Origin: Phytophthora sp. 'mugwort'
Lineage: Eukaryota > Oomycota > Peronosporomycetes > Peronosporales > Peronosporaceae
Direction of reading: 5' to 3'
NCBI GenBank assembly: GCA_033558025.1
Contig: JAUCEF010000005.1
Location: forward strand, 5,890,001-5,954,000
Length of the DNA stretch: 64,000 bases
The stretch's first letter is position 1; each line of letters opens with the position of its first letter. Under the pieces are notes generated by a model that ran no database searches, was not told the DNA's origin, and saw only the letters and a list, made by a program, of their open reading frames with translations. Below, one piece after another: positions 30,287 through 47,666 of the stretch. The position numbers and the translations under genes are program-made.

Positions 30287-30656
30287 AGTAGTATGTACCG
30301 GCACATTACGTGCACGTTTTTTGATTTCACCATATTCATTTGCATATAAATGCTCCACAACTGTGCTAGCGGGCTGTAGAGCATACCAGCTGATTTTACC
30401 CACAGCTCCAGTCGTGGTCTTTTATCAACAGAGAGCCTTCTTTCAATATGAGGGCAACGCCGTACCGGTTGAGGACATGAATCGCAAATTAAGAGCCAAT
30501 GATATTCCATCTGTCTGAGATCCGACAAAATCTCGCGGACAATTGCAATATGTCACGAAATCGCGCAAGCCGTTTGTGACTTTTGACTGTCATGAGGGTC
30601 CTCCATAATTGGTGGGGAACTGCATGACAAGATTTTCAGCCAATGATATTGCATCT
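30287..30656 (+). repeat. Left terminal inverted repeat of Polinton
   Basis: The outer ~180 bases (to 30466) match the right end essentially perfectly. After a ~34-base length difference, similarity resumes from AAATTAAGAGCC to about 30656. The terminus is AGTAGT. Confidence 0.92.
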
Positions 30657-31240
30657 GTCTGAGAGCCGACAAAAACTCTCGGACATATGGCGGTGGATGT
30701 GACAATTCTCAACACCTGTACCCACCGTATGGCGAAAGGTCACTCTATATATGGATTCACTTTGAAAGGTCACAAAAGCCATGGCTAATGCCTCGTGTCT
30801 TTTCATGCTCGTTGGCGCGTCGTGGTGAGTGCGACCGCTCGACGCAGCATGGTGGGGGTTCGAGTCCTCCAGCGGTCGTAGTTTCGGCAGCTTGAGATAA
30901 TTGTCGTGTGCTAGTTGCTTGTCCGGATCAGAGTCATAATCAAGAGGTTGGTGCGCCTCGAACCGCCTTAGGGCGAGACTCATAGTGATCAGACTGGTCA
31001 ACCCCGTGTGGAGAACGTGCCACCACAATCGGGGTTGTCCTATAGTCGTTCGGGCGAAGCCTAATGGGGTCATCCCCTGAGCACACACGTCCTCGGTTGG
31101 CATGCCATAACACAACACCGCTTGGTAAAACACTATTTAATAATATTATGTTTTTGCTATATTATTGTATTTAGAAAATCGTAGTTATACTTAATTATTT
31201 TTTTCAAACGTGAGAAAACATTGTCTACTATATAGCAACC
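30657..31240. other. Left subterminal non-coding region of Polinton
   Basis: About 580 bases before the polymerase gene. It holds CTATATATGG at about 30741, a tRNA-like segment listed separately, and an AT-rich leader from 31130. A second copy of the TIR phrase (CCAATGATATTGCATCTGTCTGAGAGCCGAC, about 30640-30671) forms a direct repeat with 30501-30530. No coding frame is supported. Confidence 0.6.
30812..30878 (+). other. tRNA-like segment with B box
   Basis: GGTTCGAGTCC (30857-30867) is a perfect B box. It sits in a 5-bp T-stem GGGGG/CCTCC with the 7-base loop TTCGAGT. AGCGGTC (30871-30877) follows directly and pairs over 7 bp with GACCGCT (30833-30839). Upstream TGGCGCGTCGTGG is A-box-like. 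No normal cloverleaf forms, because the acceptor partner lies too close to the T-arm. It is a minihelix or a decayed tRNA, not a confident tRNA gene. Confidence 0.35.
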
Positions 31241-34200
31241 ATGCGCGACTATCAGCTCGAAGGGTTGATGCAGCTCGGACTAGGGAAGAAGGACATCAAG
31301 CCATGGCGTACCAAGGCGGGGATCCAGTACCGAGTCAAAGTCCGTAACGAGACCGGGCGGGTTGTGTACATCACCGATCTGCGTGCTTTGAAGAAGCAAA
31401 AACTCATCAGCAAATACTACGGTATCTCGCTAGAGAAGCTTCAAAAGCATCTGTCGGGTGAGAGCGTACAGACTGCAACGCACAAGGTTTTCAGGAACAA
31501 GCGTTCGGAGATTCATGCTTTTATGGGACTCAACGATCACGAGTTCTATGATCGACTCGAGAATGTGTTGCTGCAGCAGGAGCATGCCTACAAGTTCGAC
31601 ATAGCAATCGGATATACTTTGGTCAACCGCACAGACCCGCTTGATGTGAGGCATTTTCATGCTGCTAACCACAACACGAGTCTGTTTAAGAATGCTCCTA
31701 CCCCAGGCCCGCAGTCAGTCAGCACTCGCAAGGACGCGATTCAGAGTATGAGCCAGGTGCGGAACATCATCCTAGAGCAAACACTCGACATTCCTGCTTC
31801 TCGCTACATGCTTAAGTCGGTCGACGCGTTCCAGCTGACGCTGTACCACCGCACGCACAGGCTGGGATCAGAGGAAGCGTTGATTCCTGAGGTGATCAGG
31901 CTTAACAAACATGTAATCAACTTTCCGCAGCCAGCGCAAAGCAACAAGTGCCTCATGTTCTGCATCGCCTATCACCTAGAAGGTAAGAAGCGAGCAAGCC
32001 ATCGTATGGCCGGACCCACCAAGCAAGCGGTCAAGAAGTGGCTCAGCTACAGAAATATTCAGTACTCGGACAAGACTTTTCCTGCTCTGTACAAGAACTT
32101 CCCGGCGATCGACATCTACAATCTCAGCGATGTGGAGGATTGCTTCAAGATCAACATTGAAGTATTCACGTTCGATGAGGAGACACAGCAGTTTGATCGC
32201 ACCATTGATTCGACCAAGGGGTACGAGACCACGATGAGCATTCTGAGCGTCAACAACCACGCGATGTACATCACAAACGCCGAACGCTTCTTGAGCAAGC
32301 ATGCCTGCCCCAAGTGTAGCATGGTATTCGCTAAAGCCGAGCAGCTGCGCAACCATGTGAAGAACAAATGCCAGGAGGCATACATCAAGCAATTCGTCAC
32401 TGGCCCGACTCGGTTCCGCCCAGCGACAAACAGGATCTCGCGTCTGCTTTGGAAATACGGGGTGAAGGATGTGGATGAGTACACCGACCATTACATGGTG
32501 TACGATTTCGAATCGATATTGAAGACTCTCGATGCTGACAAAGCCAAGCGGCTGTCATTTACGCATGCACACATCCCAGTCAGCGTCAGTGTCCACGATA
32601 CACTCACGGACGAGGCGAAGTGCTTCGTGAACGACTCACCAAAGCAGCTTCTCATCGACATGTTCACGCATGCAGAAGAGAAGCGAAAGCTCATCGAGGA
32701 ATACAACAGAACCAAGTACGCCAAGCTACTAGAGAAGATCAAACTGCTCAGAGAGAAAGCAGGAGAGGCATTCAGCCAGAATCGTACCAAGGAAAGCACA
32801 TGGTATTACAATTCATTGATCAAAGACGAGGACATAATCACTGGGTTTTGCAATACGGTTCCGCTCTTGGGGTACTTTTCGGGCACATATGATCTCAACC
32901 TCATCAAGGATGAATTGTTCTCGGCGATGCTGCACGTAGGAGGTTATGAGCAGGTGAAGCGAAGAGGGAGGCCGACCAAAGAGGAGGAGAAGCGAGAGTT
33001 GAGTGTTCGAGCAATCCTGGCCGGCAACGGGTACATGATGCTTCAGGCCGGCGGGTTCAAGATGCTCGATATTACGCGATACGTAGCAGCTGGCACGAGT
33101 CTGAGGCAATACCTCAAGGCTTACCTAGGCAGGTGCAAATGCTCGAACAAGATCGAGTGCACCTGTCAAATGAGCAAGGGTTACTTTCCGTACGAATACC
33201 TAACCAGCTTCGACAAGCTCGACCAGCCTGGGCTTCCTCCTCGAAGCGCCTTCGACAGCAAGCATCGGAGCAGCAAGATCAGCGACAAGGCGTGGAAGCG
33301 AGTGAAGTGGGTGTGGGAGCATCACGAAATGAAGACACTGCGCGATTTGCTCATCTGGTACAACGATTGCGACGTTGTTCCGTTCAGTCGAGCTATCCGA
33401 GAGCAGATGAAGTTCTTTCGCGGATTCGGTCTGGACATGTTTGCAGACGCTGTGAGCCTGCCGGGGCTTTCGGAGAAGATCATGTACAACAGCGTCTACA
33501 ACGACAAAGAATATCTTCAGTCTCGCCCTCGCATCCCAGCTGAGCCGTTCGAGTTTAGTCTGAGCCGCTTCAATGGATACAAACGCCAGGACGCAAAAAA
33601 GAACCGAGTGTTCAGCATGACGATGGAGCATATCTCGAAGCAACTGAAGGCACAGAAATACCTCTGTGGTCTGTGCTTTGTCCAGCTGACAGTGGAGACA
33701 GCTTCAGCTGACCGTATCAACAACCAGCGTGGCCATGTGAATGGTAATATTTTCATGACGTGCTCGGACTGCAACATCGCGCGCAAAGACATGAACATCA
33801 AATCGTTCAGATACAAAAAACATCTTGACTACAACGCCAGCCGGCTTGTCTACTCTATTGACAACGAGCAAAAGGAGATATACAGCCTCATGGAGAGGAA
33901 CATCTGCGGAGGTCCTTCGATCATCTTTAACAGATTCGCCAAAGCAGGCATGACGAGGATCAGGGGTGGCAAGCTCGTTCAGAAGGTCATTGGGTACGAT
34001 GCGAATGCTCTCTATCTCTGGTGTCTCTCACAAGACATGCCATGCAACCGTCTCACCATGGTTGAACCATACGATGGTCTGATCGATGATATCCTTGCGG
34101 GCAAGCAGTTCGGCTTCGTCGAGGTTGACATCGAGACACCAGAGCACCTGAAAGACTACTTTAGCGAGATGACACCCATTTTCAAGAACGTCGAGATCGA

Positions 34201-35347
34201 ACCTACAGCTGAAGTGATCGGTGAGTTCATGGCGGAGTTCAACAAGACTCGAGAGAATCCGTCGAAGGCGAGTCGCAAGCTGATCGGTAGCTACTTCGGA
34301 GAGAAGATTTTGCTGTATGCACCGCTGCTCAAATGGTACGTCCAACACGGCATGGTTATCACCAAGGTGTACTCGTTCGTGAAGTGCGACGCTGCTCGCC
34401 CCTTCAAAAAGTTCACCGAGCTAGTTTCAGACGCCCGTCGCAAAGGAGACGTAGACACAAGCAAAGAGATGATTGCAGAGACGATGAAAACGGTGGGCAA
34501 TACTCCATTCGGACGAGCAGGCATGAACCAATCGAAGCACAAGGATGTTTCCTACGTCAGCTGCGATGAAGAGGTCAGCAAAATGATTGAGAGCAACCTC
34601 TTTCAGGGCTTACAGGAGCTGGAGGGGATGTACGAGGTCACGCTGCGCAAGCGAACCATTATGCTGAAAAATGCTATCCACATCGCCATCGCCGTGTACC
34701 AGCTGGCCAAGCTGAGGATGCTTGAATTCTACTACGACTGCATCGACAAGTACATCGATCGTAGCGACTTCCAGTATCAGGAAATGGACACAGACAGCGG
34801 CTACATTTCCTTCAGCGACGACAATCCGTTTGCCAACCTGATCAAGCCAGAGCTCCGCGAGCACTTTGAGCAGCACAAGAACGAATGGTTTCCTCGCACA
34901 GACACGAAAGAGAATGCTAAGTACGACAAGCGCACGCCGGGGTTGTTTAAACAGGAGTGGGCGGGAGGAGCAATGATATCGCTGAGCTCGAAAAACTACA
35001 TCTGCTACGACGGCGACCTGATCAAGAAGAATTTCAACGAGAAGACCGGCAAGGAGGAGGAGGTCTACCACAAGACCAAATGTTCTTCGAAAGGAGTGCA
35101 AAAAAGCAACAACGCCGGCATCCTCACCCCAGAGCAGTTCGAAAAGGTCATTAACGAGAAGGTGACGCTGCAGGCAACCAACCGAGGCTTCAGGGTGGTG
35201 AAGCAGACGGATTTCTTCGATGGGCAGCGATTGACTAAAGGACCACAGATGCAAACGTATGAGCAGGTGAAGGCTGGCTGTAGCTACTACTTTGATAAAC
35301 GCCAAGTATTGCAGGACGGCATAACCACTATCCCACTCAACATATAG
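31241..35347 (+). CDS. Protein-primed family B DNA polymerase with embedded HNH-like domain
   Basis: 1368 residues; replicates the element. The N-terminal ~350 residues carry the NKCLMFCIAYHLEG...IDIYNLSDVEDCF...VNNHAMYI region typical of Polinton PolBs, then a zinc-finger motif CPKCSMVF...LRNHVKNKC (about 354-373). Exonuclease: DFESIL (D422, E424), GTYDLN (D551), YNDCDVV (D711). Between exonuclease and polymerase is C809-x2-C812, SADRINNQRGH (D824, H832), N836 and CSDCNIAR (C841, C844), an HNH/EndoVII-like zinc module. Polymerase: motif A YDANALYLW (D920), motif B K1083...GNTPFGRAG, motif C MDTDSGY (D1183, D1185), KxY SKNYICYD (K1251). All catalytic acids are present. ACTATATAG lies 6 nt before the ATG. 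The gene ends 6 bp before the integrase ATG. Confidence 0.95.
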   Translation: MRDYQLEGLMQLGLGKKDIKPWRTKAGIQYRVKVRNETGRVVYITDLRALKKQKLISKYYGISLEKLQKHLSGESVQTATHKVFRNKRSEIHAFMGLNDHEFYDRLENVLLQQEHAYKFDIAIGYTLVNRTDPLDVRHFHAANHNTSLFKNAPTPGPQSVSTRKDAIQSMSQVRNIILEQTLDIPASRYMLKSVDAFQLTLYHRTHRLGSEEALIPEVIRLNKHVINFPQPAQSNKCLMFCIAYHLEGKKRASHRMAGPTKQAVKKWLSYRNIQYSDKTFPALYKNFPAIDIYNLSDVEDCFKINIEVFTFDEETQQFDRTIDSTKGYETTMSILSVNNHAMYITNAERFLSKHACPKCSMVFAKAEQLRNHVKNKCQEAYIKQFVTGPTRFRPATNRISRLLWKYGVKDVDEYTDHYMVYDFESILKTLDADKAKRLSFTHAHIPVSVSVHDTLTDEAKCFVNDSPKQLLIDMFTHAEEKRKLIEEYNRTKYAKLLEKIKLLREKAGEAFSQNRTKESTWYYNSLIKDEDIITGFCNTVPLLGYFSGTYDLNLIKDELFSAMLHVGGYEQVKRRGRPTKEEEKRELSVRAILAGNGYMMLQAGGFKMLDITRYVAAGTSLRQYLKAYLGRCKCSNKIECTCQMSKGYFPYEYLTSFDKLDQPGLPPRSAFDSKHRSSKISDKAWKRVKWVWEHHEMKTLRDLLIWYNDCDVVPFSRAIREQMKFFRGFGLDMFADAVSLPGLSEKIMYNSVYNDKEYLQSRPRIPAEPFEFSLSRFNGYKRQDAKKNRVFSMTMEHISKQLKAQKYLCGLCFVQLTVETASADRINNQRGHVNGNIFMTCSDCNIARKDMNIKSFRYKKHLDYNASRLVYSIDNEQKEIYSLMERNICGGPSIIFNRFAKAGMTRIRGGKLVQKVIGYDANALYLWCLSQDMPCNRLTMVEPYDGLIDDILAGKQFGFVEVDIETPEHLKDYFSEMTPIFKNVEIEPTAEVIGEFMAEFNKTRENPSKASRKLIGSYFGEKILLYAPLLKWYVQHGMVITKVYSFVKCDAARPFKKFTELVSDARRKGDVDTSKEMIAETMKTVGNTPFGRAGMNQSKHKDVSYVSCDEEVSKMIESNLFQGLQELEGMYEVTLRKRTIMLKNAIHIAIAVYQLAKLRMLEFYYDCIDKYIDRSDFQYQEMDTDSGYISFSDDNPFANLIKPELREHFEQHKNEWFPRTDTKENAKYDKRTPGLFKQEWAGGAMISLSSKNYICYDGDLIKKNFNEKTGKEEEVYHKTKCSSKGVQKSNNAGILTPEQFEKVINEKVTLQATNRGFRVVKQTDFFDGQRLTKGPQMQTYEQVKAGCSYYFDKRQVLQDGITTIPLNI

Positions 35348-35353
35348 TCAACC

Positions 35354-36526
35354 ATGGATCAACTGTTGAGCAAGCTGTACAATGACCCACGCACGGGGTT
35401 CGTCAGCGCCCGAAAATTGTACTTGAAGGCGCGAGCGCTCGAGCCATCTGTGACGCTCAAGCAGGTTCGTGACTGGCTCAGCAATCAGTCGACCTCACAG
35501 CGATTCGGGGATCAGAAGCCCTCGTTTCAGCTGTTCAGAATCGCCAGCTCGAACCCTAATTCATGGCAAGCTGATCTCACCTTCTGGCCTGAGCTGGGCA
35601 AACAACCTATATTCACTGCTGTAAACATCAACTCGCGGTTAGGCTATGGTAGAATACTTAGTAGTAAAGAGGCGAGTGTTATGGTGACAGCTATGAAGGC
35701 GTTTGTCAAAGCATGCAAGCCCTCCATACTGACAACAGACAACGGGGTAGAGTACTTGAACAACAAAGTGCAGGCATACTTCAAGCAACAGGGCATCGAG
35801 CACTATAACAACGAGGCGGGGGATCATGCAAAAATGGGAATGATCGAGAGGTTCAACCGAACGATAAAGCAACGCCTGATCCAAATGGAACGTAAATTGA
35901 CACCGAAGCTACTCGCCGATGTCATTCACAATTACAACACGACGGAACACAGCTCGATTGGTCAGACGCCTGAGGAAGCAGCAGGCACGGTGGATAGAGA
36001 CGCTCTCGAGCACAATGAAGAGGTGATGGGGACGTTGGATAACAAGCTGCAAATCGGTGACAAAGTGCGATATCGATTGCCAAAAACAACATTCGGAAAG
36101 GAGGGAGCTCGCTGGAGCAAAGAGGTATACACTTACACGGGACTGGATGGCTACAAAGCTGATATTCGATCCAAGAACGGCCACGTAAAATACGTACCGG
36201 TCAACGATCTCAAGGTGGTCAACGCAGAGGCATCTGATGCAGAGATAGCACCGAGAGAGCTCTGGGAGGTCGAAAAGATCCTGGACCACCGTACGAGCAA
36301 AGGTAAGTATCGATACTTGGTGAAATGGATAACGGCGAAAGATCCGACGTGGGAGCCTCAAGCGAATCTCAGACTAATTAATAAGAATCGATTAAGCACG
36401 GCTGAGGAAAAATATTGGCAAGATATAGCAGCTGAGAAGCGAAAAGATGTTTCCAAGCTTTCGCAACAAAGCGGATCGCAACCAAAAGCAGCAAGACCTG
36501 CTCGCAAAGGCAGAGCGAAGAAATAG
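35354..36526 (+). CDS. Polinton integrase (DDE, rve family) with C-terminal chromodomain
   Basis: 390 residues. The core shows QADLTFW (D74), LTTDNGVEY (D129) and MGMIERFNRT (E165), giving D-x54-D-x35-E, the retroviral-integrase spacing used by Polintons. The N-terminal MDQLLSKLYNDPRTGFVSAR block is typical of Polinton integrases. KVRYRLPKTTFGKEG...WSKEVYTYTG is the small barrel-like part. The chromodomain at about 298-340 reads WEVEKILDHR, YRYLVKWITAKDPTWEP, with the aromatic cage positions kept. It would join the TIR ends to target DNA, and the chromodomain could direct insertion to methylated-histone chromatin. CATATAG precedes the ATG. Its end overlaps the next gene by 80 nt in another frame. 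Confidence 0.95.
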   Translation: MDQLLSKLYNDPRTGFVSARKLYLKARALEPSVTLKQVRDWLSNQSTSQRFGDQKPSFQLFRIASSNPNSWQADLTFWPELGKQPIFTAVNINSRLGYGRILSSKEASVMVTAMKAFVKACKPSILTTDNGVEYLNNKVQAYFKQQGIEHYNNEAGDHAKMGMIERFNRTIKQRLIQMERKLTPKLLADVIHNYNTTEHSSIGQTPEEAAGTVDRDALEHNEEVMGTLDNKLQIGDKVRYRLPKTTFGKEGARWSKEVYTYTGLDGYKADIRSKNGHVKYVPVNDLKVVNAEASDAEIAPRELWEVEKILDHRTSKGKYRYLVKWITAKDPTWEPQANLRLINKNRLSTAEEKYWQDIAAEKRKDVSKLSQQSGSQPKAARPARKGRAKK

Positions 36527-39020
36527 GCAAAATGCGGTCAAGCGAACTATGTATGCTGAGACGATTTGGGCGAGCGAAGGCGATAAAACAGTCACTACGG
36601 CAGCTAAATCAACAGAAACACAAACAGATGAAATGTTGCAACTTGACCAGATAAAAAAAAGTAACTCCTGGCTAAATGAAGGCGATATTCCGGCAGTAAC
36701 GACCACCCCGAGCGAGGTTCCGGAAGAGGTATCACCAGAGGCAGCACCGGACTTGACATTTGATGCAACTCAAGTTGAATCTAGTGATGCGGCTCGAGAC
36801 GTGGTTAGACAGTGGTTTCGGCAGCATCCCGATTTGGCTGAGCTTCGTGTGAATCCGATACGCCAAGACGGGACGGCGAATAGTAATTACACGTTGGGGA
36901 AGAGAGGAATGTTGTTTTCGACACGGACGGAAAGGGTAGGTCGCCCTCGTTTCATCGACTGGCGAGCCACGGCCGCTGAGGTAAGCGATAGAGCGCTTGA
37001 GCAAACACAGACACGTCATAATGAGGCGATTGAGCGTATCCAGCGATTCTACGAGACTCATCCAGACTACACCTCGCTGAGGGTTCGACCCATCAACACG
37101 CAAGGACAGCCTAGTAATTCATTCTATCTCGGCGAGCGAGGTCGTCTCATGAATGTTAGAACTGAAAGACCTGCAATCGTGGCATATGACTCCCCGGAAG
37201 CAATTAACTGGCTCGCTACTGATATCCGCCTGCGTCGCATGCATAGCGATGGAGAAAGCAATTCGCTCGACGAGCTAGCGACAATGCGCATGATGGATGA
37301 GCCAGCTCCAGCCGCACGATCGTTGACATTGGATGAGGCAAACGCGCAGCTTGAAAACGTTGAAGATCAGAGAGACACCGAGGCATGGGTAAGACGCTGG
37401 ATGGATGAACACCCCGGCGAATCGGTTGAAGTCGTTAACGGCGATTGGGTCGCTGCTCAAAATTCAATACTCGACCGTCGTGCTCCTGTCGTCTCGACGT
37501 ACTCGGAATGGTTAAGACGGCTCGATGAAGAAGCGCAGGAATTTGCATCGAGCGAACCGGAGATGGCTGAACAGCTTGAAGTCGCCGCGGATGAAGTAGC
37601 ACAGACTCAACTAAATGAAGATTTGGCAGAGCTTCGGGGAGAGGCATTAGCATCGCTTGAGAGGAGACGTAGACGATTAGGCATGGTTGAACGAGCTATG
37701 ACGCTTCTTAGACAGTCTCGCCTTGTCGTCTCAAGAGCTAGGCGTGATCGAATCCTCGAGCGGACACGAGCTGCAATGGATGACGCTATTAGGGAGATAC
37801 GAGAGCTAAATGCAATGGCTGAACATGATCACAATGCGAGTCAGCCAGTCGGTAACAAGAGAAGACGCACGGGTGAGACAACGGAGGAAGCAACGCTGCG
37901 AAGCGCACTGCGCCAGATTACAGCTGCTAATTTTCACTCACGATCGCGAGCTCAAAAAATAAAAATGCTCGAGACAGCAATTGCTTCTCTAAACACGGTG
38001 AAAGGGCGTATAGCACACGATGCTTTCCGGAGTCACTATCAGGCGATCGCTCGAGCAATGCGGCGAGTCATCGAGTCAGGCTCTACGAATCGGGTCAGCC
38101 GCAACGCCGAGGAGACGCAAATTCGCCTGATGAGCCAACCTACTCCAGCGTTACCCGCTCCTCGAACCGCACCAGCCGCTAGCCCAAGATCGACTCTGCG
38201 TCGCATTGTTAACAATAGGCAATTAATGAGCCAGCTGGCGTCGTCGAACATCCTTATCGTCCCCATACGACACGATGGTGAGGAGATCACCGGAATGATT
38301 ATCAGAGGACCAAAAAAGAGAGAAGGCGATTTGCAATTTGTAATTCCAACCGACTCTGAGCGTAGCAAGCCCAGCTACGAGCGCCATATCAACTTCGATG
38401 CTACCTTGGAACGCGTTGCCCGTCTTGCTCGCGACAAAGGTATTGACATCCAAGGCTCTCAGGGGTTGAATGGTCACCTCACGGGACGAGGCCTGCGCGG
38501 AGCTGGGAAGATGTATCAGACAGTGGAGCGACGTGGAAAATACTATAACCTGAACGACATACGTGGAACCGGTCTAGCATCAGCGTACATCTATCAGCCA
38601 ATAGGAAGCAAATACATCCGCGTGCCTGATCTCGATAAAAACAGACTCAATATAGTCTATCCGAGCCGCAAGAAACTAGGACCACTCCGCGATATTTCCA
38701 ATGACGTGAAGCAGATGCTGAAGGATCTAGTCTACGAAGGCAAGCTCAGCCAAGCCGCATACGACAAGCTCTCAATTGAAGACAAAAAGCTAATGAAAGA
38801 GATTCTTGCGGCTACTCACGTTCAAAATAGTTTCAAGGAGCAGCTGCCAGACCCAACGACCGCACTGAGAGCCGAGTACGATAAGCTGAAAGGCGAGCTG
38901 ATGATGGGGAATGACAGTCTATCGATTATGGCGCAGCTGAAGCCACTCCTAATCGACATGTACGCGAACCATCTGATATCGCTCAAGGAGTTCAAGCAAG
39001 TTATCGCCATGCTAATATAA
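36447..39020 (+). CDS. Large unassigned Polinton protein with internal repeats and a maturation-type cleavage motif
   Basis: 857 residues, family not recognised. Three degenerate repeats lie at about 114-172 (VVRQWFRQHPDLAELRVNPI...NYTLGKRG), 191-255 (RIQRFYETHPDYTSLRVRPI...FYLGERG) and 311-357 (WVRRWMDEHPGESVEVV...NSILDRR). A helical Arg/Glu-rich middle follows. The C-terminal part has HLTGRGLRGAGKMYQ, in which TGR-G and L683-RGA-G687 fit the (M/I/L)-x-G-x-G site of adenovirus-type proteases. The end is helical and Leu/Lys-rich. I chose ATG 36447 because ATATAG stands 18 nt before it; ATG 36549 is the alternative that avoids overlap with the integrase. Likely structural or virion-associated, by inference from the cleavage motif. 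Confidence 0.75.
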   Translation: MFPSFRNKADRNQKQQDLLAKAERRNRQNAVKRTMYAETIWASEGDKTVTTAAKSTETQTDEMLQLDQIKKSNSWLNEGDIPAVTTTPSEVPEEVSPEAAPDLTFDATQVESSDAARDVVRQWFRQHPDLAELRVNPIRQDGTANSNYTLGKRGMLFSTRTERVGRPRFIDWRATAAEVSDRALEQTQTRHNEAIERIQRFYETHPDYTSLRVRPINTQGQPSNSFYLGERGRLMNVRTERPAIVAYDSPEAINWLATDIRLRRMHSDGESNSLDELATMRMMDEPAPAARSLTLDEANAQLENVEDQRDTEAWVRRWMDEHPGESVEVVNGDWVAAQNSILDRRAPVVSTYSEWLRRLDEEAQEFASSEPEMAEQLEVAADEVAQTQLNEDLAELRGEALASLERRRRRLGMVERAMTLLRQSRLVVSRARRDRILERTRAAMDDAIREIRELNAMAEHDHNASQPVGNKRRRTGETTEEATLRSALRQITAANFHSRSRAQKIKMLETAIASLNTVKGRIAHDAFRSHYQAIARAMRRVIESGSTNRVSRNAEETQIRLMSQPTPALPAPRTAPAASPRSTLRRIVNNRQLMSQLASSNILIVPIRHDGEEITGMIIRGPKKREGDLQFVIPTDSERSKPSYERHINFDATLERVARLARDKGIDIQGSQGLNGHLTGRGLRGAGKMYQTVERRGKYYNLNDIRGTGLASAYIYQPIGSKYIRVPDLDKNRLNIVYPSRKKLGPLRDISNDVKQMLKDLVYEGKLSQAAYDKLSIEDKKLMKEILAATHVQNSFKEQLPDPTTALRAEYDKLKGELMMGNDSLSIMAQLKPLLIDMYANHLISLKEFKQVIAMLI

Positions 39021-39024: not shown

Positions 39025-39291
39025 ATGATTCTGCTCAATACTCGTTTCATTGACAAAAGCAATGGCGTGTACGCTCTGCAGGCGCAGGAGAATCTTTCGG
39101 AGCTCCGCCAGCTGATGAAAAATTTGATCATCAAGCGTCCTGATCACTCGGAGACGGTCTGGGCAAGCGACAAGCCCGGCGTGAAGATACCAGTGGAAGG
39201 TGGCCGCGTATGGGCCCAAACGGGTGTGTATCGTCAAAATTATGCTATTAAAGCCAAACCAGCGAAAAAAATTAAGACGTTTGCTCTATAG
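39025..39291 (+). CDS. Small basic Polinton protein (88 aa)
   Basis: Family not recognised. It starts 4 nt after the stop of the 857-residue protein; AATATAAAG overlapping that stop may serve as its start element. The text IIKRPDHSETVWASDK resembles AVKRTMYAETIWASEG near the start of the 857-residue protein, so the two may share a sorting or binding motif. The C-terminus is Lys-rich (IKAKPAKKIK). Its stop codon shares the CTATAG hexamer with the stop of the convergent fibre-like gene. Confidence 0.6.
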   Translation: MILLNTRFIDKSNGVYALQAQENLSELRQLMKNLIIKRPDHSETVWASDKPGVKIPVEGGRVWAQTGVYRQNYAIKAKPAKKIKTFAL

Positions 39292-41016
39292 CTTCGCCTG
39301 CAGCTCCCCAAGCATTCCCAATATTTTTTTTATTGCCACGCAATTCATGAGGGTTATCGCGCTGTAGTCAACACCTAATTGCACTCCTTCGATGTCGCCC
39401 TCTTCCTCCCGCTTCATGTTTTGATTCGGTGTGAACATTAGAGCTTCTCTACAGATCGGGAGCAACTCCTGAGCGATAATGCCGAGCTTCGTTGATGCTT
39501 CGTTTCTGAATTTGAAAGAAACGGGTCTGATACGGCGGTAGTGGTCAAGGCTAAAATCTAACGTTTTGATGTTCTCTTTGACTCGGCGATCTGATGTTGC
39601 GTACAGCTTGTCTTGCACCCATATGTTCGATCGAAAGCGCGCGCACATGCTGACAGTCACCGGACCACCACCAAGATTTGTGTAGCCATTAGTAGATACA
39701 TTGTACCCGTATGTGTTCGTTGCTATATTAATCGTAGTGGTGACGTTTGTAGCAGCACCGACGTCCAACGTACAGACGGGACTCGTTACACCTCCGAGTC
39801 CCAGCTGACCATTCGGTGTCAAAACCATTCTCGTGCCGCCCGAGTACCAATACATGCCGCCGGGGACAGTCGCATGCCCAGTGCCACCGATAGACAGCTC
39901 CCAAGATGAGAAATTGGTCCCGCTGAGGACGATACTGGTTCGTCCGGTAGTTATCGATTGGGTGTTGTGCAATTGCAGCATAGTCGACTCTCCGGTCATG
40001 TAGATTCCATTACGTGCGTTGGTTCCGCTTAGCGTGAATTGGAAGCCGTTGGTAGGCGTTAGGGTGTTAAAGCAGTAGCAATTTTCAGAGGTGATTAGCA
40101 TGTTGCTGCCGCTCGTGAACGAAGATGTCGCGGAAGAATCACAGCAAATGTTTAGTGCAGGCATGCTAGAATACCATTGAGTACCATAGCCGAATCCACC
40201 CGTCGATTGCCACGGTTGATTAGCGACCAAATACGCATGCCACCACCCCGACCAGATGTTCAATTCATTGCCAATCAGCTTATGCTCCGACCGTATGACC
40301 TCCTTATACTCCCCAGCCGATGAGCCGACGACGCCAGTCGTTTCGTATCCGCTGAACAAACGAAGCAGAGGGCTACACTTCTGGGTAGTCTGAGCTTTTG
40401 TGGCGATAACGAGACCTTCGTCGTCTGTGGGTCGGCATATCGATACGATCTCCTTGTATTGAGTGCCGCCATAGAATCGCAGACAGTTAGATGAGGGGCT
40501 GCCTTGACCCATCAACCCGACTCCGCTTGCATTCAGAGTCATTGCTTTGCTCGCTTGGAATGTACCCAGGGCGTTGATGTCCAAGTAGTTCAGCTCAGCC
40601 ACACTCGCTGCGATCGATGTGCCGCCGATACTCAGAGACGAGCACGAGAGACTACCTAGCCCGCTTATGCTTAGATTGGAGTCAAGAACGAGCGCTTTGC
40701 TTGCAGTCGCGATCCCGGGCGTTGCTGACAGAAGCGATGGGTTGATCGCCGAACCGCTTATCATCAGTGCCGAGCACGACACAGCACCAAGGCCGCTAAG
40801 GCTCAGATCACTGCCGAGCACGAGCGCGACACCAGCTGAAGCGACGCCAGGCGTTATCCCGCTGATATACGTCAACCGGAAATCATACTTGCTCAGGTAC
40901 AAAGTTTGCGCGTAAGAGTAGCTGAGAAAGCCGCTGGGATCAAGCGAGAGATAAAATCCAGGGTTGTAAATCGTAGAAGAGAAGATTGGTTGAGGATAAC
41001 TAAAGCCTCCACTCAT
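39286..41016 (-). CDS. Fibre-like protein with S74 intramolecular chaperone
   Basis: 576 residues from MSGGFSYPQ at 41016. The upstream in-frame ATG at 41052 would overlap the ATPase start. Residues about 48-150 hold repeated units of the pattern sATPGxAxAsKALVLdSnLsiSGLGslSCSsL, then AELNYLDI, as in trimeric fibre proteins of phages and large DNA viruses. A glycine/serine-rich beta region follows. At about 475 ATSDRRVKENI begins the S74 peptidase-chaperone domain (S475 and K480 are the expected dyad), continuing LGIIAQELLP. Such domains trimerise the fibre and then cut themselves off. Inferred role: host attachment. The gene is divergent from the ATPase over a 34-bp strip with a shared TATATA. 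Confidence 0.82.
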   Translation of the reverse strand: MSGGFSYPQPIFSSTIYNPGFYLSLDPSGFLSYSYAQTLYLSKYDFRLTYISGITPGVASAGVALVLGSDLSLSGLGAVSCSALMISGSAINPSLLSATPGIATASKALVLDSNLSISGLGSLSCSSLSIGGTSIAASVAELNYLDINALGTFQASKAMTLNASGVGLMGQGSPSSNCLRFYGGTQYKEIVSICRPTDDEGLVIATKAQTTQKCSPLLRLFSGYETTGVVGSSAGEYKEVIRSEHKLIGNELNIWSGWWHAYLVANQPWQSTGGFGYGTQWYSSMPALNICCDSSATSSFTSGSNMLITSENCYCFNTLTPTNGFQFTLSGTNARNGIYMTGESTMLQLHNTQSITTGRTSIVLSGTNFSSWELSIGGTGHATVPGGMYWYSGGTRMVLTPNGQLGLGGVTSPVCTLDVGAATNVTTTINIATNTYGYNVSTNGYTNLGGGPVTVSMCARFRSNIWVQDKLYATSDRRVKENIKTLDFSLDHYRRIRPVSFKFRNEASTKLGIIAQELLPICREALMFTPNQNMKREEEGDIEGVQLGVDYSAITLMNCVAIKKILGMLGELQAKL

Positions 41017-41050
41017 ACTATCAGTGTGACTATATAACCGGCGAGAAAAC

Positions 41051-41728
41051 ATGGCGTCGTTGATTCCCGACTTCGGAGCCGAGATCCCCAAGAAGTATCG
41101 TCAGCGCGGCGCGGGCGACATTGACCAGCTAGGCATTAAGGCATTGTTCAGGATGATAGTGCTCGGTCCTTCGATGTCAGGGAAAAACAACCTCTGTATG
41201 TTCATCCTCAAGCATTCTCCGCATGTGTACAGTCATTTGCACGTTATTGCACGCAACCCCCACCAGGAGCTCTATGAATACCTCCGCGACAAATTGGAGG
41301 GTTTCATAACGTTCTACGACGTACCGCCATCCGTTGATGCTATCCGAAAGACTCCAATGAAAAAACCAGAGCTTATCATCTGTGACGATTGGTCCAACGA
41401 CCGTGGGATGCAGCGCAGTATATTCAGCCACTACTACACTCGCGGTCGCCATTTTAAGCTGAGCACCATCTTCTTGAGTCATAGCTACTTCGCCACCGAA
41501 AAGATGATTCGTCTTAATAGCGAATATGTGGCGATCCTCAAGGCGAACTCCAAGCGTGATCTTCGTTTGATAGTAAAAGACTTCAACATCCCCGGCGTCG
41601 ATGAAGGGGCCATCGTGAGGCATTACAACATGGCGACTGAGCACAGGGGGCAAATGCTATTTGTTGACAGCGTTCGCAGCCAGCTGAGGTATAATTTCAA
41701 CAAAGTGATCGATGTTTCACAAGACTAA
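41051..41728 (+). CDS. FtsK/A32-type DNA-packaging ATPase
   Basis: 225 residues. Walker A is VLGPSMSGKNN (G39-K45), Walker B ELIICDDWS (D112, D113), then HYYTRGRHFKLSTIFLSHSYF, the sensor segment of A32-like viral packaging ATPases. Size and layout match Polinton and virophage ATPases. Oddity: the residue after the P-loop Lys is Asn46 where Ser or Thr normally coordinates magnesium. It lies directly upstream of the minor capsid gene; the stop TAA at 41726-41728 is embedded in that gene's ATATAC motif. Role: pumping element DNA into a preformed capsid. Confidence 0.92.
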   Translation: MASLIPDFGAEIPKKYRQRGAGDIDQLGIKALFRMIVLGPSMSGKNNLCMFILKHSPHVYSHLHVIARNPHQELYEYLRDKLEGFITFYDVPPSVDAIRKTPMKKPELIICDDWSNDRGMQRSIFSHYYTRGRHFKLSTIFLSHSYFATEKMIRLNSEYVAILKANSKRDLRLIVKDFNIPGVDEGAIVRHYNMATEHRGQMLFVDSVRSQLRYNFNKVIDVSQD

Positions 41729-41744
41729 TATACGTGGCGCAACG

Positions 41745-42623
41745 ATGTGCGCGAGCTTCCTGAAGATCGATTCGACCGATCTCGTACTGAACGGATTGAA
41801 CAATACTTGGCAATTCGATTTTCCCGGTTCGTCAGTCAATTTCCAGGATGTAGAAGTAGCTATCCAGAGCATTAGCCTGTTCAACAGTCAATTCAACATT
41901 GATTCAGATGCGTTTGCTAACACTAGCTTCAAAATTGAGCTACCTACAGCTGCCACTACATCCATCATCAGCGTGAATTTACCAGATGGCTACTACTCCT
42001 ATGCCGATATCAACAGAAACATTCAATCCTCTCTCATTAATGCTGGGGCATACCTGCTCGACGCATCAGGCAACAACGTGTTCCACCTGCAAATCGAGGA
42101 GAACTCGACATATTACAGCTGCCAACTCGATGTTACTCCGGTGCCTACTTCGCTACCAGCGGGATTCTCTCGCCCAGCTACGGGCCTCTACTCGTCAGGC
42201 GGTTCTGGTCTGCCGACCGTTGCGCGCGCGCCTCGTCTGATAATCGACAATGCGGCATTTGGGTCGGTGCTTGGTTTCATGCCTGGCACTTATTCATCTG
42301 CATCACCAACGACATCCGCGACTAGTGTGCTCAGCAATACGATTCCTCAGATCCACCCGAGTAGCTCATACATCATGAGGTGTGACCTGGTGAAAAACAA
42401 CTACGTCATCTCCGGAGACATCCTAGCAGCGTTCGACCGTGGTGACGCCGGTATCGGCCAGCTCATTCGCTATACCCCAGGCGGAGGCTATGCATGGATG
42501 GACACAAACAACGGTGCTAGAAGCTCTTTTAAGCTTAGCATCTACGACCAGGACGATCGACCGGTGCATTTCAGGGATCGATCCGTTTCGATCATGCTTC
42601 TGTTTCGTAGCAAAAAAAGCTAG
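41745..42623 (+). CDS. Minor capsid (penton-type, single jelly-roll) protein
   Basis: 292 residues from MCASFLKIDSTDL. An in-frame ATG at 41712 overlaps the ATPase; 41745 is preferred because ATATAC at 41728-41733 precedes it. Beta-rich text LVLNGLNNTWQFDFPG and VAIQSISLFNSQFNID at the N-terminus, and YIMRCDLVKNNY, GQLIRYTPGGGYAWMD and FKLSIYDQDDRPVHFRD at the C-terminus, fit the Polinton minor capsid protein that forms pentons at icosahedral vertices. Placement next to the ATPase, protease and major capsid genes supports this. Fold assignment is by pattern recognition. Confidence 0.85.
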   Translation: MCASFLKIDSTDLVLNGLNNTWQFDFPGSSVNFQDVEVAIQSISLFNSQFNIDSDAFANTSFKIELPTAATTSIISVNLPDGYYSYADINRNIQSSLINAGAYLLDASGNNVFHLQIEENSTYYSCQLDVTPVPTSLPAGFSRPATGLYSSGGSGLPTVARAPRLIIDNAAFGSVLGFMPGTYSSASPTTSATSVLSNTIPQIHPSSSYIMRCDLVKNNYVISGDILAAFDRGDAGIGQLIRYTPGGGYAWMDTNNGARSSFKLSIYDQDDRPVHFRDRSVSIMLLFRSKKS

Positions 42624-42647: not shown

Positions 42648-43364
42648 TCATAGTCTAAATGATCCTCCAGACTTCTTTCCACGTGCTGCACGTACAAGAG
42701 CCATGCGTTCCTTCGCTTGCTGTGAACCCTTGACCGCTACACCAACTCCTACACCGTACCGCTTCTTGATCTGACCTCGAACATCCTTAATTACTGCTGT
42801 ATGTGCTGGTGCACGACTAATAGCAAGCCTCTCTAGTTCATCGACAGCATCTGTCAGCACACCCTTTTTCTTCATATATTTCACCGCGTCTCTGCTCCGC
42901 TTCTTAACCGTAGCCATGCTTACACCTGCTCCTTCATCAACCCCAATTCCTGTGAGTGATCTCAGTCCTGATCGAGCAGTTGCTGCAGCCGCGGGGTTCC
43001 CTGTAAACGCTGCGATCGGGACAACAGCTGCGTCAGCAAGCTTGCTCAATACCCCCGAGTCCTTGGCCCATGAGAAAGCCTTCTTAATGCCTCCCCAGAT
43101 CTTCCCCCAGATCGATCCTCCATAAATGCCGCCGCCTTGTAAGTGCTTGAATGGATATCCTATCTCCTTGTGGGAGATCTGAAGCCGAGTTCCTTTGCCA
43201 GCTCGACGAGCTTTGAGCGCCTTCTTATATGACTCTGGATGCAGATGCAGAGTGCTGCCTTTTCCTTTCAGGTCATTGGCTGACAGTGTTAGAGTCCCGG
43301 TATTAAAGCATCGTTTTAGCTTGGTCTCCGGGATATCGGATGAAACTTCCAGCTCTTTGAACAT
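42648..43364 (-). CDS. Protein VI-like capsid-interior/membrane-active protein
   Basis: 238 residues. After a 75-residue leader comes HLQGGGIYGGSIWGKIWGG. LQGG-G (residues 75-79) fits the adenovirus-type protease site, and the segment downstream (about 83-100) is an amphipathic Trp/Lys/Gly helix followed by VLSKLADAAVVPIAAFTGNP. This layout (propeptide, protease site, amphipathic helix) is that of adenoviral pVI and its Polinton counterparts, which aid assembly and breach membranes on entry. The C-terminal half is very basic (KKRYGVGVGVAVKGS...KKSGGSFRL), suiting DNA or capsid-interior contact. It sits head-to-tail behind the protease gene on the minus strand, 15 nt apart. TATAG lies near 43374-43370, just before its ATG. 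Confidence 0.75.
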   Translation of the reverse strand: MFKELEVSSDIPETKLKRCFNTGTLTLSANDLKGKGSTLHLHPESYKKALKARRAGKGTRLQISHKEIGYPFKHLQGGGIYGGSIWGKIWGGIKKAFSWAKDSGVLSKLADAAVVPIAAFTGNPAAAATARSGLRSLTGIGVDEGAGVSMATVKKRSRDAVKYMKKKGVLTDAVDELERLAISRAPAHTAVIKDVRGQIKKRYGVGVGVAVKGSQQAKERMALVRAARGKKSGGSFRL

Positions 43365-43379
43365 CGTTTCTATACAAGC

Positions 43380-43757
43380 TCAGAGAATTGTAATGTTGAG
43401 ATCATCAAATCCCCTCGTCAACAAATGCGGCTTGTTGTGTTGCCTAGCGTACAGAAACAGTAACGCCCATACTCCGCAATACTCGGCATACGTACCCTGG
43501 TATTGAATCTCGTTATACTTTCGAACACCAAATCGAGCGGGTGGAGCCTCCCCCATTGAATCGTAATACTGACCATTATGCAGCGCTGTCCAATGACCTA
43601 GCCCTCCGCCTTTGCGCAGCAAAATCAGATATGAACCGCACTTGGGGAGAGGCCCAGTCACTTCTGGTGCGTCGAAGATGTTGTCGATCCGTACGCCGAT
43701 TCGGTCTGCGAGTTTGATCAGGTCGTCATCGCTAGTGACAGGTTTGACCAGCTCCAT
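43380..43757 (-). CDS. Adenovirus-type (C5/Ulp1-like) maturation cysteine protease
   Basis: 125 residues, short for the family but with all active-site elements: GHWTAL (H55), YYDSMGEAPP (D66), NEIQYQGTYAEYCGVWAL (Q85/Q87 oxyanion candidates, nucleophile C94). The His-Trp, Asp-Ser-x-G and Gln...Cys-Gly blocks are those of Polinton PRO and adenoviral proteases, which trim capsid proteins at xGx-G/xGG-x sites during maturation. Candidate substrates in this element are the pVI-like protein and the 857-residue protein. ATATAG lies 19 nt upstream of its ATG, in the strip shared with the divergent major capsid gene. Confidence 0.9.
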   Translation of the reverse strand: MELVKPVTSDDDLIKLADRIGVRIDNIFDAPEVTGPLPKCGSYLILLRKGGGLGHWTALHNGQYYDSMGEAPPARFGVRKYNEIQYQGTYAEYCGVWALLFLYARQHNKPHLLTRGFDDLNITIL

Positions 43758-43799
43758 TATTTATTTTTGATCAGCCTATATGGAGCCTCCAATATAACC

Positions 43800-45512
43800 A
43801 TGGCCACCCAACTAGGTGATCAGTATCTCTACCAGTCGGCTCTCAAAAATGAACCAGACATCAAGGTCAGTTCGCGTAAACGCGTGCCGTTTGTAATTGA
43901 TATTTCGCAGGGGTCGTATTCGTCCGGAGTTGTGACCATTGATGCTACTTCGCAGCTCAACGGGGCAGAGGGGCTCTCGAGCCTTCGTGAGGCATACTTA
44001 ATGATACCATACAAAGTCTCAATGAAGAATACGCATGGCTCGGTTGCTCTTGGTGCCGCTGCCAATCGACTCTCTCTCGGTCTTAAATGCGGAATCTGGA
44101 ATATCATCGATTCGATGTCACTGGAATTGAATTCGAAATCAGTCATTTCGATGATCGACTACTCAATGTTTTCGAATAATCTGCGAGCTATGACCGAATT
44201 CTCCTCGGGCTACGTGGATAAGCATGGAGCAGAGTCGTTTCTTTTCCCTGACTCGTCTGGATCAACTCTATGGAGCGCCTCAGCAACAACCAACGGCGAT
44301 GGGTTCTGCAACAACACGACCAATGTCGCAGCTAATCCATCAACCTCAGGCGTTCTTCCGGCCAATGAGGGCTTCGCTAAGCGACTGCTTTGCAACCCAC
44401 CGCCGGCCTCGACAAACACTTTCGGTTGGCCATCAATCGCATCTGCTTCGAGTAGCGTCATCGCGAATCAACATGGACGAGGCGCGTTCGTGGCAGGCTC
44501 TCCTGCCCCAGGAGCTATTGCTGGTTCGTATCATTACATGCTCAAGATCAGACTCGTTGATTTGCATCCCATCTTTGAACAGCTCAATCTATGCGCGAAC
44601 CCACAAATCAAGCTTCGATTGCGCCTCAACCAGGGTAGCGCCGTCATTAACACAGATGCTTCGTCTCGTATGTCTCTCTCCTCAGTCACTCTCGCCAGCG
44701 GTAACGTCTGCCCGATCATGGTCTCGTCCTCGGCTCCTGGTAGCCCTAACAACGGGGTGGTGCCAGCAAGCGGACAGTTTAGCATTGCTTGGGGATGCGT
44801 CGTGAACTCGCTTGAACCTACTGTCGACTCGACCTACATGTCGTTCACCACTTGCCGTCTATACGTCCCTTTCTTTGACCTCGAGAACCCTCAGGCGATT
44901 ATCTCGAAACCCCTCAAGAAGATTCGATACCTTAGCTTCTACCCTCAGTGGTTCTACCAACGCGCTGGAATTGGTATTAAACCCGATGGCACCCAACACA
45001 ACACCGCGTTCGATCTGCAATTGTCTGCTTCGTTGAAGGATGTGCGATTCGTAGCGGTATTACCATTTGCAGAGACATCGGCAGGGAACTACGCATCCGC
45101 TACGTGTCAGCAGTTCCAATCGCCTTTTGACAGCGCTCCGTGGACGGTTCAACCAGGTAGTTGTATTCGCAATTTCAACGTTCGTATCGGCTCTCAGCAG
45201 GTCTTCGACCTCAATCATGATTATGATTGGCACTCGTACTCGAACGAATTTGCGAAGATCTCCAGTATTAACGGGGATCTCTCAGAGCAGCTGTCGAATG
45301 GCCTCGTCGATTTGCGCACATGGTCATTGACAAATCGAATTCTCATCGCAGATGTTAGTCGATTGACCGATAAGGACGTCCCGCAATCGATCCAGGTCCA
45401 AGGAACGAACGCTTCGTCGCAGGGAGTCAATCTGCTCGTTCTTGTGGCCTATCAAAACGAGCTCACCTACAACATGCTCACAGGAGAGGTCGAAGAATAC
45501 ACTGCTTCGTGA
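43800..45512 (+). CDS. Major capsid protein (double jelly-roll)
   Basis: 570 residues from MATQLGDQYLY. The open frame begins at 43767, but ATATAACC ends 2 nt before the ATG at 43800 and favours this start. N-terminal RVPFVIDISQGSYSSGVVTID and LREAYLMIPYKV, central YHYMLKIRLVDLHPIFEQL, and C-terminal YLSFYPQWFY, FNVRIGSQQVFD and INLLVLVAY-type strands fit the double jelly-roll major capsid of Polintons, virophages and adenovirus-like viruses. It forms pseudo-hexameric capsomers. Length is usual for Polintons. No frameshift or stop is seen. Confidence 0.9.
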   Translation: MATQLGDQYLYQSALKNEPDIKVSSRKRVPFVIDISQGSYSSGVVTIDATSQLNGAEGLSSLREAYLMIPYKVSMKNTHGSVALGAAANRLSLGLKCGIWNIIDSMSLELNSKSVISMIDYSMFSNNLRAMTEFSSGYVDKHGAESFLFPDSSGSTLWSASATTNGDGFCNNTTNVAANPSTSGVLPANEGFAKRLLCNPPPASTNTFGWPSIASASSSVIANQHGRGAFVAGSPAPGAIAGSYHYMLKIRLVDLHPIFEQLNLCANPQIKLRLRLNQGSAVINTDASSRMSLSSVTLASGNVCPIMVSSSAPGSPNNGVVPASGQFSIAWGCVVNSLEPTVDSTYMSFTTCRLYVPFFDLENPQAIISKPLKKIRYLSFYPQWFYQRAGIGIKPDGTQHNTAFDLQLSASLKDVRFVAVLPFAETSAGNYASATCQQFQSPFDSAPWTVQPGSCIRNFNVRIGSQQVFDLNHDYDWHSYSNEFAKISSINGDLSEQLSNGLVDLRTWSLTNRILIADVSRLTDKDVPQSIQVQGTNASSQGVNLLVLVAYQNELTYNMLTGEVEEYTAS

Positions 45513-45522
45513 GCGAAAAAAA

Positions 45523-45690
45523 TTACATTCCCTTGTACCGATCAGGATCCGGTTGGATAGGCTTGGCTGTGCGCACTGCTTGATGCGGTATGAACGGCTC
45601 GTACTGGTATCGTTTCGGTGGCCGCTCAACATAGACAATGCGATTGTCGATCGGGGGTGGCTCCGGCACGTCAACGTATTCGATGTCCAT
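45523..45690 (-). CDS. Small proline-rich protein (55 aa), hypothetical
   Basis: ATG at 45690 and stop TAA at 45525-45523. It reads MDIEYVDVPEPPPIDNR, then a Pro/Tyr/Lys-rich stretch ending PDPDRYKGM. It lies 10 bp after the stop of the convergent major capsid gene and 2 bp downstream of the 102-residue gene on the same strand. TATAG stands 2 nt before its ATG and ATATAACC about 20 nt before. No family recognised; supported mainly by position and the start motif. Confidence 0.45.
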   Translation of the reverse strand: MDIEYVDVPEPPPIDNRIVYVERPPKRYQYEPFIPHQAVRTAKPIQPDPDRYKGM

Positions 45691-45692
45691 GT

Positions 45693-46001
45693 CTATAAGA
45701 TCTTGGTTATATCTGAGCGCAGCTTTGTCATTTTAACACTGAACGGGGATCGTAAAAGCCACTCCAAGTATTGACGATCGATCGCTAATACTTGAAGGAT
45801 TGTCTTATCCTTGTATTTGCCGAAGGTCAGCAGATAGCTTCCGTCAGAATCCTTAAACTTCGTGTCAAGGTATCCCCTCAGCTCCGGCTTCGATTGCAAT
45901 ATTATCTCCTGACTGTGCAGCCAGCGCATGTATCGTGGATCCTCTGTATAGGCCTCGTCGTATGACTTGCCTTTGTGTCGGCCAAAGTTAATCTCGCTCA
46001 T
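45693..46001 (-). CDS. Tandem ExoX-C/DUF3820-like small protein (102 aa)
   Basis: Two copies of one short motif: INFGRHKGKSYDEAYTEDPR-YMRWL (residues about 4-30) and LTFGKYKDKTILQVLAIDRQ-YLEWL (about 57-82). The pattern FGK(Y/H)KxKxxxxV...D..Yl.WL is that of the small domain at the C-terminus of exodeoxyribonuclease X-like proteins and DUF3820, seen in phages and large DNA viruses. There is no nuclease core, so a DNA-associated accessory role is only inference. CTATAG at 46011-46016 precedes the ATG by 9 nt. Confidence 0.65.
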   Translation of the reverse strand: MSEINFGRHKGKSYDEAYTEDPRYMRWLHSQEIILQSKPELRGYLDTKFKDSDGSYLLTFGKYKDKTILQVLAIDRQYLEWLLRSPFSVKMTKLRSDITKIL

Positions 46002-46081
46002 CGTCTATTACTATAGATACCCAACGAAAATATTTTTGAGCGATATTTACCACAGCGGCAATGCAATAGCTGGTCACCGGA

Positions 46082-46301
46082 TCATACACGTGCATGAGCG
46101 GGTAAATCTGAGGTCAGACACGTGTCTGAGCTGGTCCAATTTTATCGAGGCATTGGTTGAGCGTACGCTAGAAGCTGAATAGAGACTTCTCATGCAGGTC
46201 ACCGGATCAGACACGTGTCTGAGCGGGCTGGGTCACTTGACGTTTCTGAGCTACAATACGTGTTGGAGCTCAAAGTCTGAGCGGCAACACGTGTTGCAGC
46301 T
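46082..46301. repeat. Cluster of CACGTG-type palindromes
   Basis: TCAGACACGTGTCTGA occurs perfectly at 46114-46129 and 46207-46222. Variants are TCATACACGTGCATGA (46082-46097), CAATACGTGTTGGAGCT (about 46254) and CAACACGTGTTGCAGCT (about 46285). Most are followed by GC(T/G)(G/C)G. Possible protein-binding or replication-related sites. Confidence 0.6.
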
Positions 46302-46944
46302 CGGCTCCGTCGCGCAAACCTTTTTCTCGGACTTTTTTTTTATTTTTGCTCAACTTTTCAAAAAGTTTGCACAGACCCCAACCTTGACAAATACACCTCC
46401 TTCGCATCTGAGCTATTGCATGGCTGTTGTCGCTCGTCTCTGAGACGATCCTCGCTTTCGATATGATCTCCATCGCATGAGAAGCCTCGACACTGCTTCT
46501 AGCAAGCTCTCATTCAATGTAGACAACTGATATAGCATGCATTGCAAATCCAAGCGAAAAAGGCCTTCAAGTACTCACCAGTTCACTAAAATAAAAGAAG
46601 AGAGTAGCATCACAAATGGGCTACCTCGACGGACGTTCCGCTCCTCTCGAATGTTTCGGGCTCTATGGGGCCAGCTACTACCTGCACGCGCCTTTCTTCC
46701 GGGGTTGGTCATTCTCGACAATCTGGTGCTTGCCTCACCAAGCGAGCAGTCGGTCCATCACTCTCTTCAGTCTCAGTTGTATCTGGGTTTGACGGTCGTG
46801 GCTCCACGACACACTAGACAAGCGATGCTCAACAACGTTCGGACTCTATAGCGCAAGCGTCTTCCGTGGTTCCATTGCTGAACAGTCGCGGGTCTGGTCG
46901 TGCCGCTTCGCCGAGGTTGCAAGTCTCGACCGTTGGTATACTGA

Positions 46945-47085
46945 ACCGCCGTCGCTCAAGATGGGTTCAGTTGGTGTGGTCCACATACGCATCGCTTCGC
47001 GTACGCTACAGAACCTCTCCATATATAGTGAGCCATCGTCGCTCAAGATGGATTCATATGGTGTGGACCACAAATGTACTGTCGC
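46945..47085. repeat. Two-copy direct repeat near right end of Polinton
   Basis: CGTCGCTCAAGATGG(G/A)TTCA with following GGTGTGG(T/A)CCACA occurs at about 46953 and about 47037, each preceded by a TATAC or TATATA stretch. The period is about 84 bp. Confidence 0.6.
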
Positions 47086-47262
47086 AAACGTCTTGCAAGA
47101 TTTGGTGACAGCTCTTGATTGGCTGATCGATTAGCAAATCGCTTCTAATTGGCTAGCCTTTGATTTGCAGTTTTCCGTCACTAACGGGATTCGACATTAT
47201 GAAGCAGACTATCCGCGAGGACCATCCTGAGCAACCGGGTGCGAGATATGTCGCAGCCGGCG

Positions 47263-47666
47263 AGACGCAATATCATTGGCTGAAATTCTTGTCACGCAGT
47301 TTCCCATCAATTATGGAGGAGGCTCATAACAGGCAAATGTCACAAAGTCCTTGCGCGATTTCGTGACACATTGCAATTGTCCGCGAGATTTTGTCGGATC
47401 TCAGACAGATGGAATATCATTGGCTCTTAATTTGCATAAACCCGTTCCCGACGGAAAGCTGCAAATTAGGATTCATGTTCGCAAATGGTACGGCGTTGCC
47501 CTCATATTGAAAGAAGGCTCTCTGTTGATAAAAGACCACGACTGGAGCTGTGGGTAAAATCAGCTGGTATGCTCTACAGCCCGCTAGCACAGTTGTGGAG
47601 CATTTATATGCAAATGAATATGGTGAAATCAAAAAACGTGCACGTAATGTGCCGGTACATACTACT
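47263..47666 (-). repeat. Right terminal inverted repeat of Polinton
   Basis: Inverted counterpart of 30287-30656. It carries an extra ~34-base segment at about 47434-47470 and ends ACTACT. Confidence 0.92.

Follow-up and report, generated by a model that had tools for sequence, protein, structure and literature searches.

The locus considered here raises the question of whether a virus that could still build capsids lies integrated in an oomycete chromosome. It is found in a 64,000-nucleotide stretch of DNA from Phytophthora sp. 'mugwort' (hereafter the window; assembly GCA_033558025.1, contig JAUCEF010000005.1, positions 5,890,001 to 5,954,000 of the forward strand), in which a 17,380-bp element with the genes of a Polinton occupies positions 30287-47666 inside a copia retrotransposon. 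The element is very probably an integrated Polinton in an oomycete, most likely of the Gossevirus (GKS1) group. A group of integrated viruses in oomycetes is already described in two papers (PMC7805220; PMC10120064), and the element is a well-preserved new member of this known kind with an unusual chromosomal address.

An earlier note on this DNA had described a complete, unbroken, capsid-encoding Polinton nested in a copia element, and the ends, target duplication, open reading frames (ORFs) and interrupted gag all bear this out. The terminal AGTAGT lies at 30287 and the terminal ACTACT at 47666, both ends being inverted copies that start AGTAGTATGTACC, and the target site duplication GGCGCT was read from the flanks at 30281-30286 and 47667-47672, as the note had it. 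The terminal inverted repeat (TIR) is longer than the roughly 180 bp of near-perfect repeat that had been claimed. Its left arm covers 30287-30656 (+) and its right arm 47263-47666 (-); the outer 180 bp (30287-30466 and 47487-47666) are identical at 180/180 positions, followed by a 34-bp segment that is present on the right and missing on the left, and then by ~92% identity to about 370 bp. The note had also proposed a search for other copies with the same TIR. A single search of the 86.26-Mb, 154-contig assembly with the left TIR, in which very common words were skipped, returned only the two ends of the element and a 48-bp piece adjoining the left end. The GC content of the Polinton is 50.0% compared to 55.2% for the rest of the window.

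The host gag had been predicted to read through once the element is removed, and it does. When the two flanks are brought together around one GGCGCT, a single copia gag frame is open over the junction as far as 48388 (5' part 29603-30286, including the left target duplication, and 3' part 47673-48388, both +). Three other copia copies in the window align over the break, which falls near 15.9, 24.2 and 28.4 kb in them, with no gaps and carry GGCGCT once; these empty sites are paralogous, not allelic. Over a stretch reaching 86 bp to the left and 164 bp to the right of the break, identity to the three copies is 82-92%, and farther right it is 64-88%. The tract 29612-30190 is 98-100% identical to the two neighbouring copies that reach that far, and this identity falls to ~83% some 90 bp before the insertion, a step that appears to be a separate event of gene conversion or duplication, the pattern being like that left by gene conversion between inverted copies. 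A chimeric target, considered because the left flank is at 98-100% and the right flank mostly at 64-90%, was rejected: the drop in identity is located some 90 bp to the left of the insertion point, and the values on either side of that point are similar. The same older copia has also been entered, 716 bp to the right, by a copia element with identical long terminal repeats (LTRs) at 48389-53126, which is flanked by GAAAC at either end; this element and another at 57767-62504 form an inverted pair of 4.7 kb, identical to each other.

The larger genes of the element are all open from ATG to stop. The PolB-type DNA polymerase (1368 aa, 31241-35347, +) has the motifs DFE (residue 422), YD (550) and YNDCD (707), which we take to be those of the exonuclease, and YDANALY (919), GNTPFGR (1086) and DTDS (1183), which we take to mark the polymerase, all in the expected order; the polymerase part is assigned by motif. 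Between these two parts, residues ~781-866 (window 33581-33838) form an endonuclease VII/HNH-like domain (PHROGs, E 5.4e-7) that was found in 9/9 PolB loci read. A lesion of PolB through this insert was rejected because the insert is kept in all of these loci and because Polinton pPolB with endonuclease insertions has been reported (PMC11071308). The RVE (DDE) integrase with a C-terminal chromodomain (390 aa, 35354-36526, +; Pfam PF00665 E 8.9e-9, above its own cut-off, and PF00385 E 9e-9) has the residues D74, D129 and E165 (D-x35-E), and NCBIfam added transposase matches below cut-off only.

The morphogenesis genes follow. The major capsid protein (MCP; 570 aa, 43800-45512, +) is assigned by its relatives and by a predicted double jelly-roll model, and the penton or minor capsid protein (303 aa as called, 41712-42623, +) likewise by relatives and a predicted model; its start may be Met12 (41745), because the relatives span ~95% of the called protein. 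Both proteins passed the jelly-roll check that had been suggested for them, on predicted models. Named relatives of the MCP come from Phytophthora and Plasmopara, and those of the penton additionally from Lagenidium. Sequence searches of the PDB with the MCP or PolB gave nothing, or matches such as haemoglobin and ribosomal protein S18 that were taken as chance.

The A32-type packaging ATPase (225 aa, 41051-41728, +; Pfam PF04665 E 8.9e-7, above its own cut-off) is where the claim that all active sites are kept needs amending. The Walker A of the ATPase reads GPSMSGKN and not GK[S/T]. The GKN ending is found likewise in 8/8 loci on contig C12, which are near-identical copies, and in the database protein P0210, and other relatives end in GKK, GKP or GKT. 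As such, GKN looks like a family trait and a broken ATPase was rejected. The adenovirus-type cysteine protease (125 aa, 43380-43757, -) has H55, D66, Q87 and C94, presumably the catalytic residues, and in an alignment of 26 loci, some of them the same place fetched twice, C is kept in 26/26, H in 24/25, D in 23/26 and Q in 24/26. A pVI-like protein (238 aa, 42648-43364, -), named by analogy and with a function presumed from it, has relatives in 26/45 loci (some again the same place), of which the eight printed are 57-60% identical.

The fibre (588 aa, 39286-41052, -) ends in a peptidase S74/chaperone of endosialidase domain (Pfam PF13884 E 2e-10; PHROG tail fibre E 1e-12). Its first ~170 residues match many loci in the genome at 45-62%, and the loci matched by its distal part are others, many of which carry stops. 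Residues 160-588 have 15 protein-database relatives, 14 of them without an organism name (jgi, lgn, ena, one also ncbi), and the sole named relative is from P. infestans at 33%. The fibre looks like a mosaic with the pattern of an anchored stem and an exchangeable tip. S74 domains are described as ubiquitous in the Polinton-like viruses (PLVs) of most eukaryotic groups (PMC12220804).

Other reading frames are less readily named. An 857-aa protein without assigned function (36447-39020, +), whose start overlaps the integrase by 80 bp, had no family match above cut-off in profile searches including Pfam and NCBIfam. A small protein with ExoX-like C-terminal repeats (45693-46004, -; Pfam PF20600 E 2.3e-18) has relatives in 27/45 loci. 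For two small ORFs of 155 and 69 aa (30636-31103 and 45523-45732, both -), the 45 loci, of which few extend over the left end, yielded no relatives, and both ORFs are doubtful as genes.

Several features support these assignments. The cysteine protease (by residues), a core gene of Gossevirus, and an MCP model nearest Sputnik are traits of that group, and the RVE integrase, the A32-type ATPase, the TIRs and a target duplication within 5-7 bp are traits of Polintons/Mavericks, to which the predicted models add the double-jelly-roll MCP and the penton. Bellas and Sommaruga (2021, PMC7805220) reported 15 complete oomycete elements, of which four have RVE and pPolB, and for three integrated elements they gave target duplications of 5-7 bp. 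Up to 299 copies of Gossevirus-group MCP genes were reported from one oomycete genome, oomycete MCPs being restricted to this group with models nearest Sputnik (Bellas et al. 2023, PMC10120064). On the basis of host, gene content and MCP structure, this placement is the most likely one.

Relatives of the element are abundant in the genome, where copy counts are lower bounds. The MCP search, in which the best 76 of 484 candidates were scored, gave at least 86 matches, or 74 distinct places once 12 secondary pieces were merged, and the second-best place among the candidates scored is 63% identical. The next best PolB is 50% identical over nearly its full length (at least 56 matches, best 34 of 635 candidates scored), the next best ATPase 74% (at least 153 matches) and the next best near-full-length integrase 54% (at least 112 matches). 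At C12:2.33-2.54 Mb, Polinton-bearing segments stand in tandem, first four units ~26,420 bp apart and then three ~29.3 kb apart. Each of the first four holds two Polinton halves in opposite orientation; over their main matched parts the units and locus L009 are 99% identical, and the array lies 0.1-0.3 Mb from the C12 copia cluster.

A quick tree of 117 MCPs (SH-aLRT support, midpoint root) was built from the studied protein, 103/120 listed database matches (those of at least 500 aa; 17 shorter rows were left out) and the 13/18 host copies that are stop-free (five with a stop, L023 among those unused, and degraded host copies were left out). The 13 host copies all group in a clade of 60 rows (support 96), and the studied MCP falls into another of 21 rows (support 97), apart from the host copies in the tree. 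Here, 8/20 other rows are from P. sojae, P. nicotianae, P. cinnamomi, P. fragariae and P. lilii, and the sisters of the studied MCP (P0005, P0006 and P0007, support 98; sources jgi and lgn, without organism name) may be environmental. The host copies are not identical to any listed database relative (best 96.5%, best named ~95%, P. rubi). A separate arrival of the studied element in this genome is no more than suggested by this topology, as the remnants on C5 described below speak for an earlier presence.

The chromosomal address is unusual. For two copia families represented in the window at 24765-28895 and 48389-53126, the best 40 of 818 and the best 40 of 814 candidates were scored, and 42/45 (three short LTR pieces left out) and 40/40 matches were used. 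Of these best-scoring matches, 77/82 are concentrated on 17 contigs, each with a single main cluster (on one contig just one match), and the main clusters total 0.99 Mb, which is 1.15% of the assembly. The centromeres of P. sojae are sites where a copia element clusters, and clustering of this sort has been put forward as a means of recognising oomycete centromeres (PMC7082073). On that basis C5:5.90-5.96 Mb counts as a candidate centromere. Of the 74 MCP places, the studied element alone falls inside a copia cluster, and three others are no more than 100 kb away from one; a preference of the Polinton family for copia is unsupported, because 1/74 is about the chance expectation for 1.15% of the genome. 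A literature search turned up no paper that, judging by its title, deals with Polintons in oomycete centromeres.

How such an element would come to lie here can be sketched. A linear double-stranded DNA form would be copied by its own PolB and inserted by the RVE integrase with a 6-bp stagger, and the chromodomain would probably tether the integrase to marked heterochromatin, which fits the place of the element in a dense copia cluster. The MCP, penton, ATPase, protease, pVI-like protein and modular fibre would make up a complete morphogenesis set, and for this reason a provirus able in principle to make capsids is the best reading of the element. That it could be an integrated oomycete virus, as had been proposed, is consistent with the published Gossevirus group. 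Several points weigh against this reading. The element is known here from assembled sequence and predicted models; the structural likenesses are distant, with a Foldseek TM-score of ~0.5 for the MCP and of 0.42 for the penton (root mean square deviation 6.5-7.3 A over ~245 residues); the polymerase part of PolB has no polymerase match in Pfam, NCBIfam, PHROG or PDB, and the protease, assigned by conserved residues only, has none in Pfam; in IMG/VR no relative turned up when the MCP, an MCP alignment or PolB was used as query; and one of the three other copies tried, at C5:4.2 Mb, showed no TIR between two end pieces.

The strongest alternative, and a serious one if short of an even chance, is that the element is now a transposon only, moving within the genome without particles and keeping its capsid genes by recency alone. 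Many sister copies are indeed broken or partial: only 8/74 MCP places, the studied element included, match at least 95% of the protein's length without a stop (the other 66 do not), and for PolB, among the candidates scored, only two places do, the studied element and C5:4194305, where the adjoining MCP is interrupted. The near-identical C12 copies L009 and L010 likewise have nonsynonymous and synonymous differences (pN 0.0077, pS 0.0075) as expected without selection, and L009 and L011 have pN 0.0015 and pS 0.0025 (L006, L007 and L012 being left out of these comparisons). However, none of the capsid, protease and fibre ORFs is interrupted in the studied element, and the distal half of its fibre has its matches chiefly among unnamed database proteins that lie outside the sequenced genomes of oomycetes. 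Its MCP differs from L009 and L010 with pN 0.257 and pS ~0.79 (saturated), which points to capsid function kept by long-term constraint and is silent on the time since insertion.

It is rather unlikely that the copy is old and vertically inherited, with an outer TIR that was homogenised and ORFs that were spared by chance. The recent insertion that had been proposed is favoured, without proof, by the identical outer TIR and the open ORFs, the 0/180 differences allowing up to ~1.7% arm divergence (rule of three), but it is weakened by the diverged inner TIR; the 8-18% difference of the neighbouring copia copies near the insertion likewise counts for greater age. Degraded PolB-integrase remnants in a mirror-image pair (C5:359599-364303 and C5:435548-440255) also speak for an earlier presence of the lineage in this genome, since their integrase and PolB N-terminal part (67-70%) appear to be the genome's closest matches, unlike the PolB middle part (49-52%). 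Against an old copy stand ~13 kb of open reading frames without stop or frame break, and copies on C8 (same terminal AGTAGTA, TIR 94% identical, TGCGAG on both sides) and C14 (TIR 87%, target duplication with one mismatch). That a viral contig was wrongly joined to the chromosome during assembly is hardly credible even in so repetitive a region, given the perfect 6-bp target duplication, the gag frame kept over the junction and the similar divergence from three copia paralogues on both sides of it.

The provirus reading can be extended to a recent arrival from a Gossevirus lineage whose particles still pass from one oomycete to another. Such a provirus would carry a fibre module exchanged with free viruses and would have been placed in centromeric chromatin by its chromodomain integrase; as a whole this is quite improbable. 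If true, an intact virus-like genome would be housed in a working centromere. The exact ends, open genes and adjoining empty-site paralogues make it testable whether particles are still made in Phytophthora-type hosts, and whether chromodomain integrases steer elements to heterochromatin or centromeres.

Compared with known systems, the element shares with the cryptophyte PLVs, which have other hosts, a fibre ending in a chaperone of endosialidase, a likeness of the fibre end (PMC12220804). Mavericks/Polintons have the same full gene set of pPolB (here by motif), RVE, MCP, minor capsid protein and ATPase, together with TIRs and a 6-bp duplication, but the MCP is probably of the Gossevirus type and not the animal Polinton type, going by the literature. 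With the virophages Sputnik and mavirus it shares the MCP and penton folds (models), the protease and the ATPase, and mavirus likewise has an RVE integrase, whereas sequence searches gave no match to virophage capsid chains in the PDB. From Gossevirus (GKS1) the studied copy is set apart by its address in a candidate centromere and by an MCP that groups away from the clade of those host copies that are in the tree; the two agree in their oomycete host, Sputnik-like MCP structure, cysteine protease, TIRs, 5-7 bp duplications in some members, and the pairing of RVE with pPolB seen in four published oomycete elements.
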